In this document: positions 1 to 38,162 of the stretch, one piece after another
Numbering within the stretch: position 1 is the first letter of the stretch
Layout of the letters: every line of letters starts with the position of its first letter
Source: Desulfobulbaceae bacterium
GTDB lineage: Bacteria; Desulfobacterota; Desulfobulbia; Desulfobulbales; Desulfocapsaceae
Assembly (NCBI GenBank): GCA_019163335.1
Contig: JAFLKM010000015.1
Coordinates: 1 to 38,162, forward strand
Direction: 5' to 3'
Length of the DNA: 38,162 bases
Notes under the pieces: model-generated
Seen by the model: only the letters and a program-made list of their open reading frames with translations
Told to the model about the DNA's origin: nothing
The model's database searches: none
Position numbers and translations under genes: made by a program

Positions 1-191
1 AACCAGCAGCTCCCCAGGCCAGGGGCACGCATACTGATAAAGACTTTAAAGAAATGGTGACGCAAATAAAGCTATTGAACAAAATGGTGGCACACCTTGA
101 AACGATGGTCGCCGACAGAGATAAACAGATTGTTCGGCTGGAGAGCGAACAGACCGCTCATGTCGCGGTCAAAAAAAAACAGGTCATATAG
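1..191 (+). CDS. Phage repressor A, C-terminal fragment (cut by window edge)
   Basis: The frame that starts at base 3 encodes about 62 residues and stops at TAG 189-191. It aligns with the C-terminal part of the complete CI-like repressor at 36138-36578: both share the stretch around THTDK/AHTDK, then a Leu- and Met-rich, charged, probably coiled-coil segment, and end in V-K-K-K-Q plus a few residues. Only the linker and coiled coil are inside the window; the helix-turn-helix domain would lie upstream of base 1. The role is therefore inferred from the second copy: DNA-binding control of lysogeny. The gene ends on a run of nine A (171-179), and the next reading frame begins in -1 phase without a start codon (see the next entry). 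It is likely to be the lysogeny regulator of the element that ends at about 2250. Confidence 0.7.
   Translation, partial: PAAPQARGTHTDKDFKEMVTQIKLLNKMVAHLETMVADRDKQIVRLESEQTAHVAVKKKQVI
171..179 (+). other. A9 slippery run at end of repressor A
   Basis: Nine consecutive A sit in the zero frame as AAA AAA AAA CAG, which gives a zero-frame A-AAA-AAA heptamer, a sequence type known to promote -1 ribosomal frameshifting and transcriptional slippage. The -1 frame stays open from here for 99 codons and is conserved in protein sequence with the second copy, which has A10 at the same place (36557-36566). Slippage itself is inference. Confidence 0.55.
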
Positions 192-478
192 TAAAAATCT
201 ATTCCAATCCAGAGCCGCATAGGAAATGCAAAAACCCGACGCTCTACTGTGTGCGCAATGTCCGCAAGGAAGGCGGGATCTGCACCGCCGGGGTGGAGTC
301 GGTGATGGAGAAAACCCACGCTCTGGCCGTCGCCATGAACAATATGATGGACCAGCACAGCATGAAGTATAAAGCCAACCACGAGAAGGGCCTGCTTGCC
401 CGCGACAGGGTTTTACAAGTCCTGAGTGGGGGGGGGGGTGGTGGCGACAGAGAGTTATGGAAGAGGACGGCCGGCTGA
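179..478 (+). CDS. Start-less -1-frame zinc-motif extension of repressor A
   Basis: This frame lies -1 to the repressor and is open from the stop at 122-124 to TGA 476-478. No ATG, GTG or TTG occurs in frame before GTG 251, yet similarity to the second copy (36566-36841) starts right at the A-run: K-K-K-T, then I-x-K-I-Y-x-N-P-x-P-H-R-K-C. Conserved residues form H-x2-C-x6-C-x10-C, a plausible zinc site. Next come a Met-rich helix and the block N-H-E-K-G-L-L-x-R-D-R. Most nucleotide differences between the copies in the conserved motif fall at third codon positions, as expected for a translated sequence. The simplest reading is a C-terminal extension made by -1 slippage on the repressor. The alternative is a separate gene starting at GTG 251, which would cut off the conserved Cys/His part. 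The function is unknown. Confidence 0.55.
   Translation, partial: TGHIVKIYSNPEPHRKCKNPTLYCVRNVRKEGGICTAGVESVMEKTHALAVAMNNMMDQHSMKYKANHEKGLLARDRVLQVLSGGGGGGDRELWKRTAG
428..438 (+). repeat. G11 homopolymer tract inside the zinc-motif frame
   Basis: Eleven consecutive G encode glycines after the conserved N-H-E-K-G-L-L-x-R-D-R block. In the current frame the protein ends 13 codons after the tract (478). In -1 phase it continues to TAA 493-495 with residues such as R-V-M-E-E-D-G-R-L. These resemble the -1-phase residues after the G10 tract of the second copy (R-D-I-E-E-R-S-K-L, ending at 36879). Length variation or slippage here would switch the C-terminus. Confidence 0.75.
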
Positions 479-7852: not shown

Positions 7853-8125
7853 TCAATCTTCCTTTCTGCGATGCGTATTGTTCTCCACCGGCTGGATGCC
7901 CAACTTACCCATGATACGGCAGAGGTTACTGTTCATGGTGGTCACCACCGCCATGCGCTCTTCGCAGCTGCTCTCCAGGCATGCAACCCGTTTTCTTAGA
8001 TCGTTGTATTTTTGGTGCTCGTGGCCTGTTTGATAGACAAATCCGAAGAGCACCACAAGGCCTGCAAGGAACCGCTCCCAATGCTGGAGGAAATATTCAA
8101 TAAAAGTGGTTGTTTCCGGGGTCAT
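7853..8125 (-). CDS. Small membrane-anchored coiled-coil protein of the lysis cassette
   Basis: A 90-residue protein with one predicted membrane helix near residues 18-34 (R-F-L-A-G-L-V-V-L-F-G-F-V) and a C-terminal charged region with heptad-like Leu/Met spacing and two nearby Cys (L-E-S-S-C-E-E ... L-C-R). It is the first gene of the lysis block, after a 39-bp gap from the tail-tip gene. Similar single-TM proteins next to holins may act as antiholins or accessory holins. No specific family is recognised. Confidence 0.65.
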   Translation of the reverse strand: MTPETTTFIEYFLQHWERFLAGLVVLFGFVYQTGHEHQKYNDLRKRVACLESSCEERMAVVTTMNSNLCRIMGKLGIQPVENNTHRRKED

Positions 8126-35769: not shown

Positions 35770-35922
35770 GATCCTTTCAAGGTCCAATTTTATAAAGGTG
35801 AACTCATTGCCCATGCGTCTCAATAACGATGCGGGAGAGTCGCAGGCATCAGCGGCCATCATGCAGGATTCTTCCAGCATGCCGACTTTGCTTGTCAGGG
35901 ATTTAATAGAATCTCGGCTCAT
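35680..35922 (-). CDS. Small early unknown protein (80 aa), antisense to DUF2513-like gene end
   Basis: An 80-residue protein whose ATG overlaps the Cro-like stop (ATGA). The N-terminal ~55 residues are helical with two Cys (M-L-E-E-S-C-M-M-A-A-D-A-C), resembling small phage regulators. The last ~25 residues lie antisense to the DUF2513-like gene and are low complexity. Opposing transcription could let the two genes control one another. Confidence 0.55.
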   Translation of the reverse strand: MSRDSIKSLTSKVGMLEESCMMAADACDSPASLLRRMGNEFTFIKLDLERISSETANPIPDLGGDNLSQDRESPGNRGAE

Positions 35923-36125
35923 GCTGTTTCCTCTTTGGTTGAGATTTCCGGCCAGATATCGGAGACTGGCTTGTTGATGGCCAGAGAGATTGCCGTTCTT
36001 ATTCGCGGAGTTTTCCGCTTCCCCGTTATAACGTTATGAACGCTCGGGGCTTTGATTTTCAGCATCTTTGCAATGCTCAACTGGGTGACCCCAGCTTTTT
36101 CTAATTCCTGCTTAATGTCTTTCAT
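35919..36125 (-). CDS. cro: Cro-like helix-turn-helix regulator
   Basis: A 68-residue protein from ATG 36125 (M-K-D-I-K-Q-E-L-E-K-A-G). It carries a lambda-repressor-type HTH: V-T-Q-L-S-I-A-K-M-L-K-I (helices 1-2), A-P-S-V-H-N-V-I-T-G-K-R-K (recognition helix), then R-T-A-I-S-L-A-I and a C-terminal W-P. A longer frame to 36161 has no merit. It is divergent from the repressor with only ~12 bases between start codons, so operators must lie in the coding ends. This is the lytic-switch regulator. Confidence 0.75.
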   Translation of the reverse strand: MKDIKQELEKAGVTQLSIAKMLKIKAPSVHNVITGKRKTPRIRTAISLAINKPVSDIWPEISTKEETA

Positions 36126-36137
36126 ATTAGGCACATT

Positions 36138-36578
36138 ATGGCAAAAATGAATAATATGCAAGAGGAAAAATACATTGATGTTGGAAAAATTATAGATTCT
36201 TTAGTTGAATATAAAAAACTAAAGGAAATACAAGACCTTGCTGTTTTTTTAGAAATGCCAAGGCAATCACTTTATTCGTGGATAAAGCGGGGAAGGATAG
36301 CAAAACCGAGAAAAATATTAGTCAAAATACCAGAGCTGAATATTAGTTGGCTCCAAACCGGCGAAGGCCCGATGTTAAACAACGCCACCGATGAACCAGC
36401 GGCTCCCTTGGCCAGGAGCGCGCATACTGATAAAGAGTTTGACGACATGGTCTGGAAGATTGAGCTGCTGGAAAAAAGAGTAAAAGACAAAGAGGAAATT
36501 ATTGATGGACTTAGACGAGAAAACGAGACGCTCCGAGCTGGTCTTGCTGAACCTGTAAAAAAAAAACAGCAACTATAA
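36138..36578 (+). CDS. Short CI-like phage repressor without S24 peptidase domain
   Basis: A 146-residue protein. The N-terminal ~80 residues resemble phage CI-type HTH domains: L-A-V-F-L-E-M-P-R-Q-S-L-Y-S-W-I-K-R-G (turn and recognition helix) and I-S-W-L-Q-T-G-E-G-P-M. The remaining part is a linker plus a charged coiled coil (I-E-L-L-E-K-R-V-K-D-K-E-E-I). The LexA-like S24 autoprotease domain of classical repressors is missing, so RecA-stimulated cleavage is unlikely. The gene ends at a run of ten A, after which a -1 frame continues with a zinc-like domain. Starts at Met 4 or 7 are possible. Confidence 0.8.
   Translation: MAKMNNMQEEKYIDVGKIIDSLVEYKKLKEIQDLAVFLEMPRQSLYSWIKRGRIAKPRKILVKIPELNISWLQTGEGPMLNNATDEPAAPLARSAHTDKEFDDMVWKIELLEKRVKDKEEIIDGLRRENETLRAGLAEPVKKKQQL
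36557..36566 (+). other. A10 slippery run at end of repressor B
   Basis: Ten consecutive A in the zero frame GTA-AAA-AAA-AAA-CAG (heptamer A-AAA-AAA). It is in the same place as the A9 run of the first copy (171-179). The -1 frame is open for 91 codons beyond. Confidence 0.6.
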
Positions 36579-36841
36579 TTAAAATATATGCGAACCCGTC
36601 ACCACATCGGAAATGTGCGCACCCAGATCTAACTTGCGCTCGTGGCTGCCGGTCACCAGATGGCATTTGCATGGCGAACTCTGCCAAACATGTCACGAAA
36701 CTGGTTGAAAATATGAAACAGATGTATGTGGTGGAAGGAAAAAGCAACCACGAGAAAGGCCTCCTGCTCCGTGACCGGCTTTTTAAACTGCTTTGTGGGG
36801 GGGGGGCTTCCACCGGGATATCGAAGAGCGCAGCAAGTTGA
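36566..36841 (+). CDS. Start-less -1-frame zinc-motif extension of repressor B
   Basis: This frame is in -1 phase to the repressor. Its protein matches the first copy: K-K-K-T-x-x-I-I-K-I-Y-A-N-P-S-P-H-R-K-C, H-x2-C-x6-C-x10-C, then K-x-N-H-E-K-G-L-L-L-R-D-R-L-F. The first in-frame ATG (36671) comes only after all the Cys/His, so the conserved part can be made only by slippage or a non-standard start. It ends at TGA 839-841 after a G10 tract (36797-36806). In the -1 frame after that tract the sequence continues to 36879. A separate 56-residue protein from ATG 36671 is possible in addition. Confidence 0.6.
   Translation, partial: TATIIKIYANPSPHRKCAHPDLTCARGCRSPDGICMANSAKHVTKLVENMKQMYVVEGKSNHEKGLLLRDRLFKLLCGGGASTGISKSAAS
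36797..36806 (+). repeat. G10 homopolymer tract (second copy)
   Basis: Ten consecutive G encode glycines after the R-D-R-L-F-K-L-L-C block, at the same point as the G11 tract at 428-438. In -1 phase, the frame continues with F-H-R-D-I-E-E-R-S-K-L-N to TAA 36877-36879, resembling the first copy's -1-phase tail. Confidence 0.75.
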
Positions 36842-36899: not shown

Positions 36900-37961
36900 A
36901 TGAGCGTCGGGCCACACCCTCACAATCCAGGCCAATGGATAATTGATTGTCGCCCTGGAGGATATAAAGGCCCGCGTGAGCGGATTCCATTTGTCGGCAC
37001 CAGGCAGGAGGCGGTGGATCTGGAGCGGGTGATTATGCGGCGCCATATTGACGCCCCTGATCCGACACCACGGCAGCTGTCGGCGATCTTTCTGGAATGG
37101 CTGGTCTATTATCGGGCAAATCGGGCGGAAAAGACGGTGGGGGACGCAAAGCTCTGTTGGACCGTGCATCTGGCTGAAAAATTCGGCAAAATACTGCCGA
37201 AACACATCACCAGGGCGACCATCGAACAGTATAAAGCGGGGCGGATCGGCGAGGGGGTGAAGCACCGGACGGTGAACAAGGAGCTGTCCTATCTGAGCAG
37301 TATGCTCAAGTGGGCAGCGGCCAACGATTATTGTGAGCCCATGCCATTTCCGATATCCGGCTTTAACCGTAAGCTGACGGCACCACCCAGGCCAAGGCCG
37401 CTTACGGCCGAGCAGATCAGCCTGGTGTATTCGCTGATCGAACCGGAATACCGCCTCGTTTTCCTGCTGATGGCAGATGCCGGATTGCGACGCAGCGAGG
37501 CGATGCAGCTGCAACGATCCGCCGTCGAGTTTGATCACGGGATTTTGTTTGTCACCGGCAAGGGGAATAAGGAGCGGATCGTCCCCATTACCACCGACAG
37601 GCTGATGGAGGAGCTGAGAGACCGCGAAGGGATGACCGGATATCTGACTGTCAACCCAGGCACCAAGCGGCCATACCTGAGCATCCGGAAGGCACTGCTT
37701 CGGGCAGCGGAAAAAGCCGGCCTGGGGAAGCACCTGTACCACCATCTGCTTCGGCACTCGTTCGGCACCGTGGCCACCATTGCCGGGTATGATCTGTCCG
37801 CCCTGCAGTCTATTATGGGGCACAGCTCGCCATCTACCACCGGCATCTATCAGCACATGGCGGGCGACTATTTACGCAACCAAGGCCGGAAATTAAACGA
37901 TATGGTCAAAACCGAGCGTCCACATGGACAGTGTTCGGACACCCCGCAAAAGCACGACTGA
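36900..37961 (+). CDS. int: Tyrosine-type phage integrase B
   Basis: A 353-residue tyrosine recombinase. Catalytic residues: Arg in A-G-L-R-R-S-E-A, Lys in G-K-G-N-K-E-R, H-L-L-R-H-S-F-G, G-H-S-S, and Tyr in I-Y-Q-H-M. The first ~50 codons differ from integrase A by only about three bases, then similarity drops abruptly to ordinary homologue level. It lies 20 bp after the -1-frame tail of the zinc-motif extension and directly before the tRNA-Arg fragment, its presumed core. Confidence 0.95.
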   Translation: MSVGPHPHNPGQWIIDCRPGGYKGPRERIPFVGTRQEAVDLERVIMRRHIDAPDPTPRQLSAIFLEWLVYYRANRAEKTVGDAKLCWTVHLAEKFGKILPKHITRATIEQYKAGRIGEGVKHRTVNKELSYLSSMLKWAAANDYCEPMPFPISGFNRKLTAPPRPRPLTAEQISLVYSLIEPEYRLVFLLMADAGLRRSEAMQLQRSAVEFDHGILFVTGKGNKERIVPITTDRLMEELRDREGMTGYLTVNPGTKRPYLSIRKALLRAAEKAGLGKHLYHHLLRHSFGTVATIAGYDLSALQSIMGHSSPSTTGIYQHMAGDYLRNQGRKLNDMVKTERPHGQCSDTPQKHD

Positions 37962-38042: not shown

Positions 38043-38076
38043 AAGGGTTGCAGAGGTTTCTCTGTAAGCCTTTTTT
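38043..38076 (+). terminator. Rho-independent terminator after tRNA-Arg fragment
   Basis: AAGGGTTGCAGAG (38043-38055) pairs, with one mismatch and one G-U, with CTCTGTAAGCCTT around a short loop, followed by six T. It occupies the same position as the terminator at 2261-2293 but with a different stem. Confidence 0.75.
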
Positions 38077-38081
38077 GTTAA

Positions 38082-38162
38082 AATTTGTCCACATTTGTCC
38101 ACATTGGTTTTTGTGGACATTGCTGGTTGTCCCGGGTTGTTTTTTTTATAGAGGTGTGGCCG
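38082..38162. repeat. 82-bp direct repeat, right copy (probable P' arm), ends with window
   Basis: Identical to 2299-2380 except for one fewer T. It includes two TTTGTCCACA units and inverted GTGGACAT. The octamer GTCCACAT is also found at 37918-37925 in the end of integrase B. The match runs to the last base of the window, so the true end of the repeat is not seen. Confidence 0.9.

Follow-up and report, generated by a model that had tools for sequence, protein, structure and literature searches.

Two diverged copies of a CI-type phage repressor gene lie in the window (by which we mean the whole 38,162-nt stretch of DNA that was analysed), and in both the gene is continued by an extension in the -1 frame that has no start codon of its own, bears the marks of selection and is reached only via the region of an A-run at the end of the repressor. 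We consider it probable that the gene makes a short and a long protein by programmed slippage, either transcriptional or ribosomal. Normal decoding would give a 146-aa repressor, consisting of a helix-turn-helix and a coiled coil and ending just past the A-run. A slip at the A9 or A10 run would, in some fraction of events, lead into the -1 frame and add about 90 residues carrying the motif H-x2-C-x6-C-x10-C and the stretch NHEKGLL-x-RDR.

The window is an entire contig, one of the 103 that make up a 3.2-Mb genome, and holds parts of two related prophages, arranged head to tail. Only the end of the left prophage is present, with the 3' part of the repressor, the -1 ORF, a gene with a zinc-ribbon-like start and an integrase (1118-2161, + strand; named by the start that it has in common with the other integrase). 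The second prophage fills the rest of the window and finishes with the repressor, the -1 ORF and, downstream of the extension, a tyrosine integrase (36900-37961, +). The starts of the two integrase genes have 148 bp at 98% in common, with no DNA match beyond, which is perhaps the trace of a recent exchange; a stretch of about 97 bp recurs after each integrase (2282-2378 and 38066-38162) and is probably the attachment site. Gene 523-1110, found in the left prophage only and situated between the -1 ORF and the integrase, encodes an N-terminal CxxC...CxxC pattern and, as read by eye, a membrane segment; its zinc-ribbon matches fall below the cut-off, and it matches phrog_2320 (function not known) at E 2.5e-17. 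A divergent helix-turn-helix ORF of at most 80 aa (35919-36161, minus strand; phrog_769, E 1.2e-10), whose listed TTG start overlaps the start of the repressor, is possibly the Cro-like partner of the latter. The second phage, with the same A10 and G10 runs, is also carried by an IMG/VR contig (L017/L018) that is perhaps from the same sample. L017 equals the window over 4,606 identical bases, the repressor region included; L018 shows 4 mismatches over 10,127 bases, and near the junction it matches over another 2,718 alignment columns, apart from 3 mismatches and 2 gaps. At about 4400-4620 of L017 the integrase end of the second prophage is joined to the tail-gene end, and this junction represents either an excised circular form or prophage copies in tandem.

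The repressor of the second prophage (copy 2; 36138-36578, +, 146 aa) matches PF07022 (Phage_CI_repr) with 28.5 bits against a gathering cut-off of 22 (E 1.9e-6). Its helix-turn-helix is followed by a likely coiled coil (read by eye), and comparison with family profiles gave no match to an S24 domain in the 0 frame or in either -1 tail. The repressor of the left prophage (copy 1) is truncated by the contig end, leaving its 3' part (3-191, +). The original prediction placed the end of the copy 2 repressor, V-K-K-K-Q, at an A10 run and described a diverged copy of the same geometry at an A9 run. Both statements agree with what we found: the A10 run (36557-36566, +), the proposed slippage site, holds A_AAA_AAA in the 0 frame, and copy 1 has its A9 run at 171-179 (+) and shares the TGA that closes the -1 frame. 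The 0-frame proteins end in ...VKKKQQL* (copy 2) and ...VKKKQVI* (copy 1), with the stop (TAA and TAG, respectively) as the third codon past the Q of V-K-K-K-Q. These are the sole runs of at least nine A or T within the window. Their difference in length is due to a substitution, the codon preceding the three AAA codons being GTC in one copy and GTA in the other, so that the two frames keep the same offset in both copies with no indel involved.

In copy 1 the open -1 frame extends from 125 to the TGA at 478, in copy 2 from 36551 to the TGA at 36841. The extension itself amounts to 102 aa in copy 1 (170-478, +) and to 93 aa in copy 2 (36560-36841, +; KKTATIIKIYANPSPHRKC...). In both copies it contains H-x2-C-x6-C-x10-C, as had been predicted, besides the conserved NHEKGLL-x-RDR stretch, and the conserved spacing of the H/C/C/C residues suggests that the tail binds metal. 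Upstream of the A-run the open -1 frame is free of ATG, GTG and TTG in either copy. The earliest such codon in copy 2 is the ATG at 36671, beyond all four ligands; in copy 1 it is the GTG at 251, between the third and the last ligand. The claim that no standard start precedes the conserved Cys/His residues therefore holds, save for this GTG ahead of the last ligand in copy 1. Both elements by which a programmed frameshift is recognized, a slippery run at the junction and a conserved second frame without its own start, are present.

Comparison of the two copies indicates that the -1 frame is under purifying selection from the A-run to the shared TGA. The tails are identical at 43 of 93 aligned residues (46%), of which 21 are encoded by different codons; the half that holds the motif has 22 identical residues among 37, 13 of them via different codons. 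The expectation of mostly synonymous changes is thus fair, but for the conserved positions alone (13 of 22 in the motif half). The dN/dS comparison that had been proposed as a check came out in favour of the -1 frame: from the A-run onwards dN is 0.515 and dS 1.983, whereas reading that alignment in either of the remaining frames gives ratios above 1 (0.684/0.526 and 0.726/0.520, with 8 and 6 codon pairs skipped on account of stops). When the alignment columns were shuffled, none of 5000 shuffles matched the observed pS-pN, none reached the observed identity, and 4 of 5000 kept both copies free of stops. Since the alignment used for the shuffles was guided by the -1 proteins, the comparison was repeated using DNA alone. 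All 275 compared columns then hold the same -1 phase, the differences are distributed over the codon positions as 44/91, 28/92 and 50/92 (p = 0.003), and the gaps before the stop (18 and 6 nt) preserve the frame. A codon-usage score with six ORFs of the window as training set also puts the -1 frame ahead of the five other frames in either copy, albeit with small margins.

Each -1 ORF also contains a G-run, and the two occupy matching places: G11 at 428-438 (+) in copy 1 and G10 at 36797-36806 (+; Gly-Gly-Gly) in copy 2. The frame is kept across both runs to the common stop. Runs of at least ten G occur at nine places in the genome, including these two, and we can offer no explanation for the latter beyond a poly-glycine stretch. 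A second slippage at G10/G11 was suspected, since reading on in the next frame yields EERSKL-like residues in one copy and EEDGRL-like residues in the other. It was rejected since the -1 frame itself reaches the shared TGA with frame-preserving gaps; the pairing of the alternative frames is not clearly above shuffles (p 0.13 for -2/-2 and 0.03 for 0/0, among nine comparisons).

The tail had been proposed to take the place of an S24 domain that the repressor lacks, a suggestion that other viral repressors do not bear out. In a simple text test the GDSM (S24) signature is absent from 26 of 30 other viral repressor loci (a set with 23 distinct tails, several being copies of one another, in which L133 still looks S24-like to our eye and L112 is truncated by its contig end). 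Many of the 30 measure about 142-161 residues from stop to stop and have a short helical end. S24-less repressors ending in a short helix are therefore an ordinary form of the family, and what is out of the ordinary is the tail. Such repressors (L113-L118, L120, L121, L124-L127, L130) are like the one in the window in combining a helix-turn-helix with a short helical C-terminus and in carrying no protease signature; unlike it, they have neither an A-run of at least nine nor a start-less extension. None of the 30 viral loci contains an A-run of at least nine in the ORF or in the 30 bases past its stop. An A7 run is situated near the end in four (L129, L131, L134, L135), and the long open -1 frames that accompany it in L129 and L131 were rejected for want of any likeness to the tail. 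Eight further relatives of the repressor (L033-L040) show no A-run of at least nine and no matching tail; L034 has an A8 close to its end. One further match in a genome (L142) was also discarded: it has an A8 run 65 nt before the stop, but no open -1 frame afterwards.

As far as our pattern scans, tblastn and HMM searches of the sampled collections reach, the tail is confined to this phage pair. It matched no family in Pfam or NCBIfam; the best E values were 0.07 and 0.11 against PHROG and 1.2 and 4.7 against PDB sequences, and the predicted structure (pLDDT 50.7) was too poor for use, so that neither a known family of zinc fingers nor a reliable fold emerged from these comparisons. Phage records yielded no relative of either copy and plasmid records none of copy 1. 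An HMM search of 257 genomes of the host class returned ten other genomes at E 0.004-0.05, which after a recheck are taken as chance; a further HMM search gave matches in 13 genomes at E 0.03-0.85, and among 395 genomes of the phylum (a set overlapping the 257) the genome's own entry alone passed E 0.003. The tail patterns found the same phage and one chance match in IMG/VR, where copy 1 alone found nothing, and no relative in genome contigs; such scans require short exact matches, which remote homologues may escape. The exact H-x2-C-x6-C-x10-C was present in none of 24 rechecked candidate loci, all of which are taken as chance; the best of them (L021) has stops inside. L006 and L029 have an HRRC-x6-C stretch in common with the tail, but theirs lies in an alternative frame that overlaps a long ORF at its end. 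L019 and four genome loci, which match the NHEKGLL DNA pattern only and can be read through with no tail-like Cys/His part, were likewise dismissed. No third homologue was accepted in the sampled collections, and the conservation of the junction rests on the two diverged copies.

We infer slippage at A9/A10 from the same geometry in both copies, the selection on the -1 frame, the lack of a standard start and the frame relation kept between the copies without an indel. A10 and G10 also recur in the IMG/VR contig, even though it departs from the window by a few bases at other positions. The slip would consist either of the RNA polymerase adding an A or of the ribosome stepping back on A_AAA_AAA, and either would yield V-K-K-K-T. 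The position of A_AAA_AAA in the 0 frame makes ribosomal -1 slippage possible; transcriptional slippage is the likelier of the two, given run lengths of 9-10 and the failure to find a downstream structure common to both copies. Downstream of the A-run, no RNA structure beats shuffles in either copy. Upstream, a 6-bp GC-rich hairpin (152-170, +; -9.3 kcal/mol alone) abuts the A9 run of copy 1 only, copy 2 being without one. Of 200 shuffled sequences each, 3 folded as well with a 71-nt piece, 1 with a 21-nt piece and 43 with a 31-nt piece, and given these counts the hairpin could be there by chance. Its absence from copy 2 counts against slippage, as do the downstream folds no better than shuffles, the restriction to two diverged examples and a housekeeping gene broken at a C11 run (see below); so do three A9 runs that lie in frame within long ORFs elsewhere, since A9 is evidently not strictly avoided in this host.

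The mechanism itself is known. A9 runs are described as established slippage sites and bacterial RNA polymerase as slipping at A9-A10 lengths (PMC1088944, PMC3711429, PMC5009743). Transposases of IS elements from Deinococcus, Nostoc, Mesorhizobium and others, for which 9A transcriptional slippage is reported, resemble the window in having a run of 8-10 A close to where the first ORF ends, slippage to a second ORF and a mobile element as carrier; the product differs, being a transposase and not a repressor (PMC1088944). Shigella Spa13 and Thermus dnaX, the latter with a 9-A/T run as slippage site, likewise obtain two protein lengths per gene from polymerase slippage, although, as presented in PMC5009743, these are unrelated proteins and not of phage origin. 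The hairpin abutting A9 in copy 1 resembles the nascent-RNA stimulator of a Roseiflexus IS mentioned in the same source (PMC5009743), a likeness that counts in favour of slippage. The nearest functional precedent is FseA (msi172-msi171) of ICEMlSym-R7A (PMC10359603), a transcription regulator of a mobile element encoded by two ORFs that are fused by low-frequency programmed frameshifting; unlike the repressor, FseA is an activator, uses a +1 ribosomal frameshift and is built of DUF6499-DUF2285 domains. A frameshift-extended CI-type phage repressor was absent from the matches listed in the open-licence PMC literature, which is weak evidence of absence. Most known cases of programmed frameshifting in temperate phages concern structural genes; in the regulation of mobile elements the main known case is FseA. 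Among structural genes, those for head and tail of phage A2 are given as examples in PMC5009743. The extension of the repressor, documented in two diverged copies, is likely to be a new use of a known mechanism.

Were the run lengths miscalled in the assembly, repressor and tail would be one ordinary gene and slippage would be unneeded. A fused gene would also have a tail without its own start, and the same assembly contains a glutaminyl-tRNA synthetase-like gene, presumably glnS, that is broken by a C11 run just past its ATG (L048; own-genome contig C12, around 7923-7933). Its relatives lie in one frame without such a run in 14 of 16 other genomes of the genus (L091-L104; the remaining two gave no match). 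The break may be either an assembly error or real slippage, and unless that gene slips too, homopolymer lengths in this assembly are not always right. Nevertheless, we judge a miscall unlikely in the window: the two copies are unlike in sequence and in the length of the run, yet the frame is offset to the same side in both, the GTC/GTA substitution speaks against independent miscalls, the G10 and G11 of these very ORFs are passed in frame, and the IMG/VR contig (if perhaps from the same sample) carries the same A10 and G10. Other runs in the genome point the same way. A9 has 151 overlapping matches on both strands, and among the 27 distinct runs in the 30 loci listed, L061, L079 and L080 are in frame well inside long single ORFs (which we take to be conserved genes, gyrA-like, NADH-dehydrogenase-like and QueH-like, respectively), while the remaining listed runs offered no clear in-gene test. 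Seven other G/C runs of at least ten include three of 10-11 that are in frame inside ORFs (L047, L054 and L058, with L047 and L058 so counted on the assumption that the gene starts upstream of the run), besides L048; L050, L055 and L056 gave nothing clear.

The tail might also be a separate protein, started by translational coupling at a non-standard ATA or ATT at the repressor stop, and in both copies an ATA of the -1 frame (188 and 36575) does overlap the 0-frame stop. ATA is a very poor start codon, though, and counts against a separate start; the most that resembles a ribosome-binding site by eye is a weak AGGT in copy 1, copy 2 showing none, and conservation begins at the A-run itself (K-K-T). 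We hold such a start to be highly unlikely. As homopolymer runs are classical phase-variation tracts (PMC3711429), and two of the nine places with G-runs of at least ten fall in these tails, slipped-strand replication could instead alter the A-run at the DNA level, so that some cells would carry a fused repressor and others the short one. This appears extremely improbable: A9 and A10 differ by a substitution and not by an indel, with the frame relation kept, and the run lengths in the IMG/VR contig are identical.

If programmed slippage operates here, the place of the tail behind the coiled coil points to mixed oligomers, in which long and short repressors would associate through the coiled coil, and the Cys/His tail may bind metal and tune repression. 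It is doubtful, and at present speculative, whether such a minority isoform governs lysogeny, its metal or redox tail joining the short form via the coiled coil as an induction input where RecA-triggered self-cleavage is absent. Frameshifts of this type are known from other mobile elements, and a CI-type phage repressor would probably be a new setting for them. It would also be a warning that gene callers miss such tails. A repressor with a fixed ratio of two isoforms would mean that recoding acts directly on the lysogeny switch.
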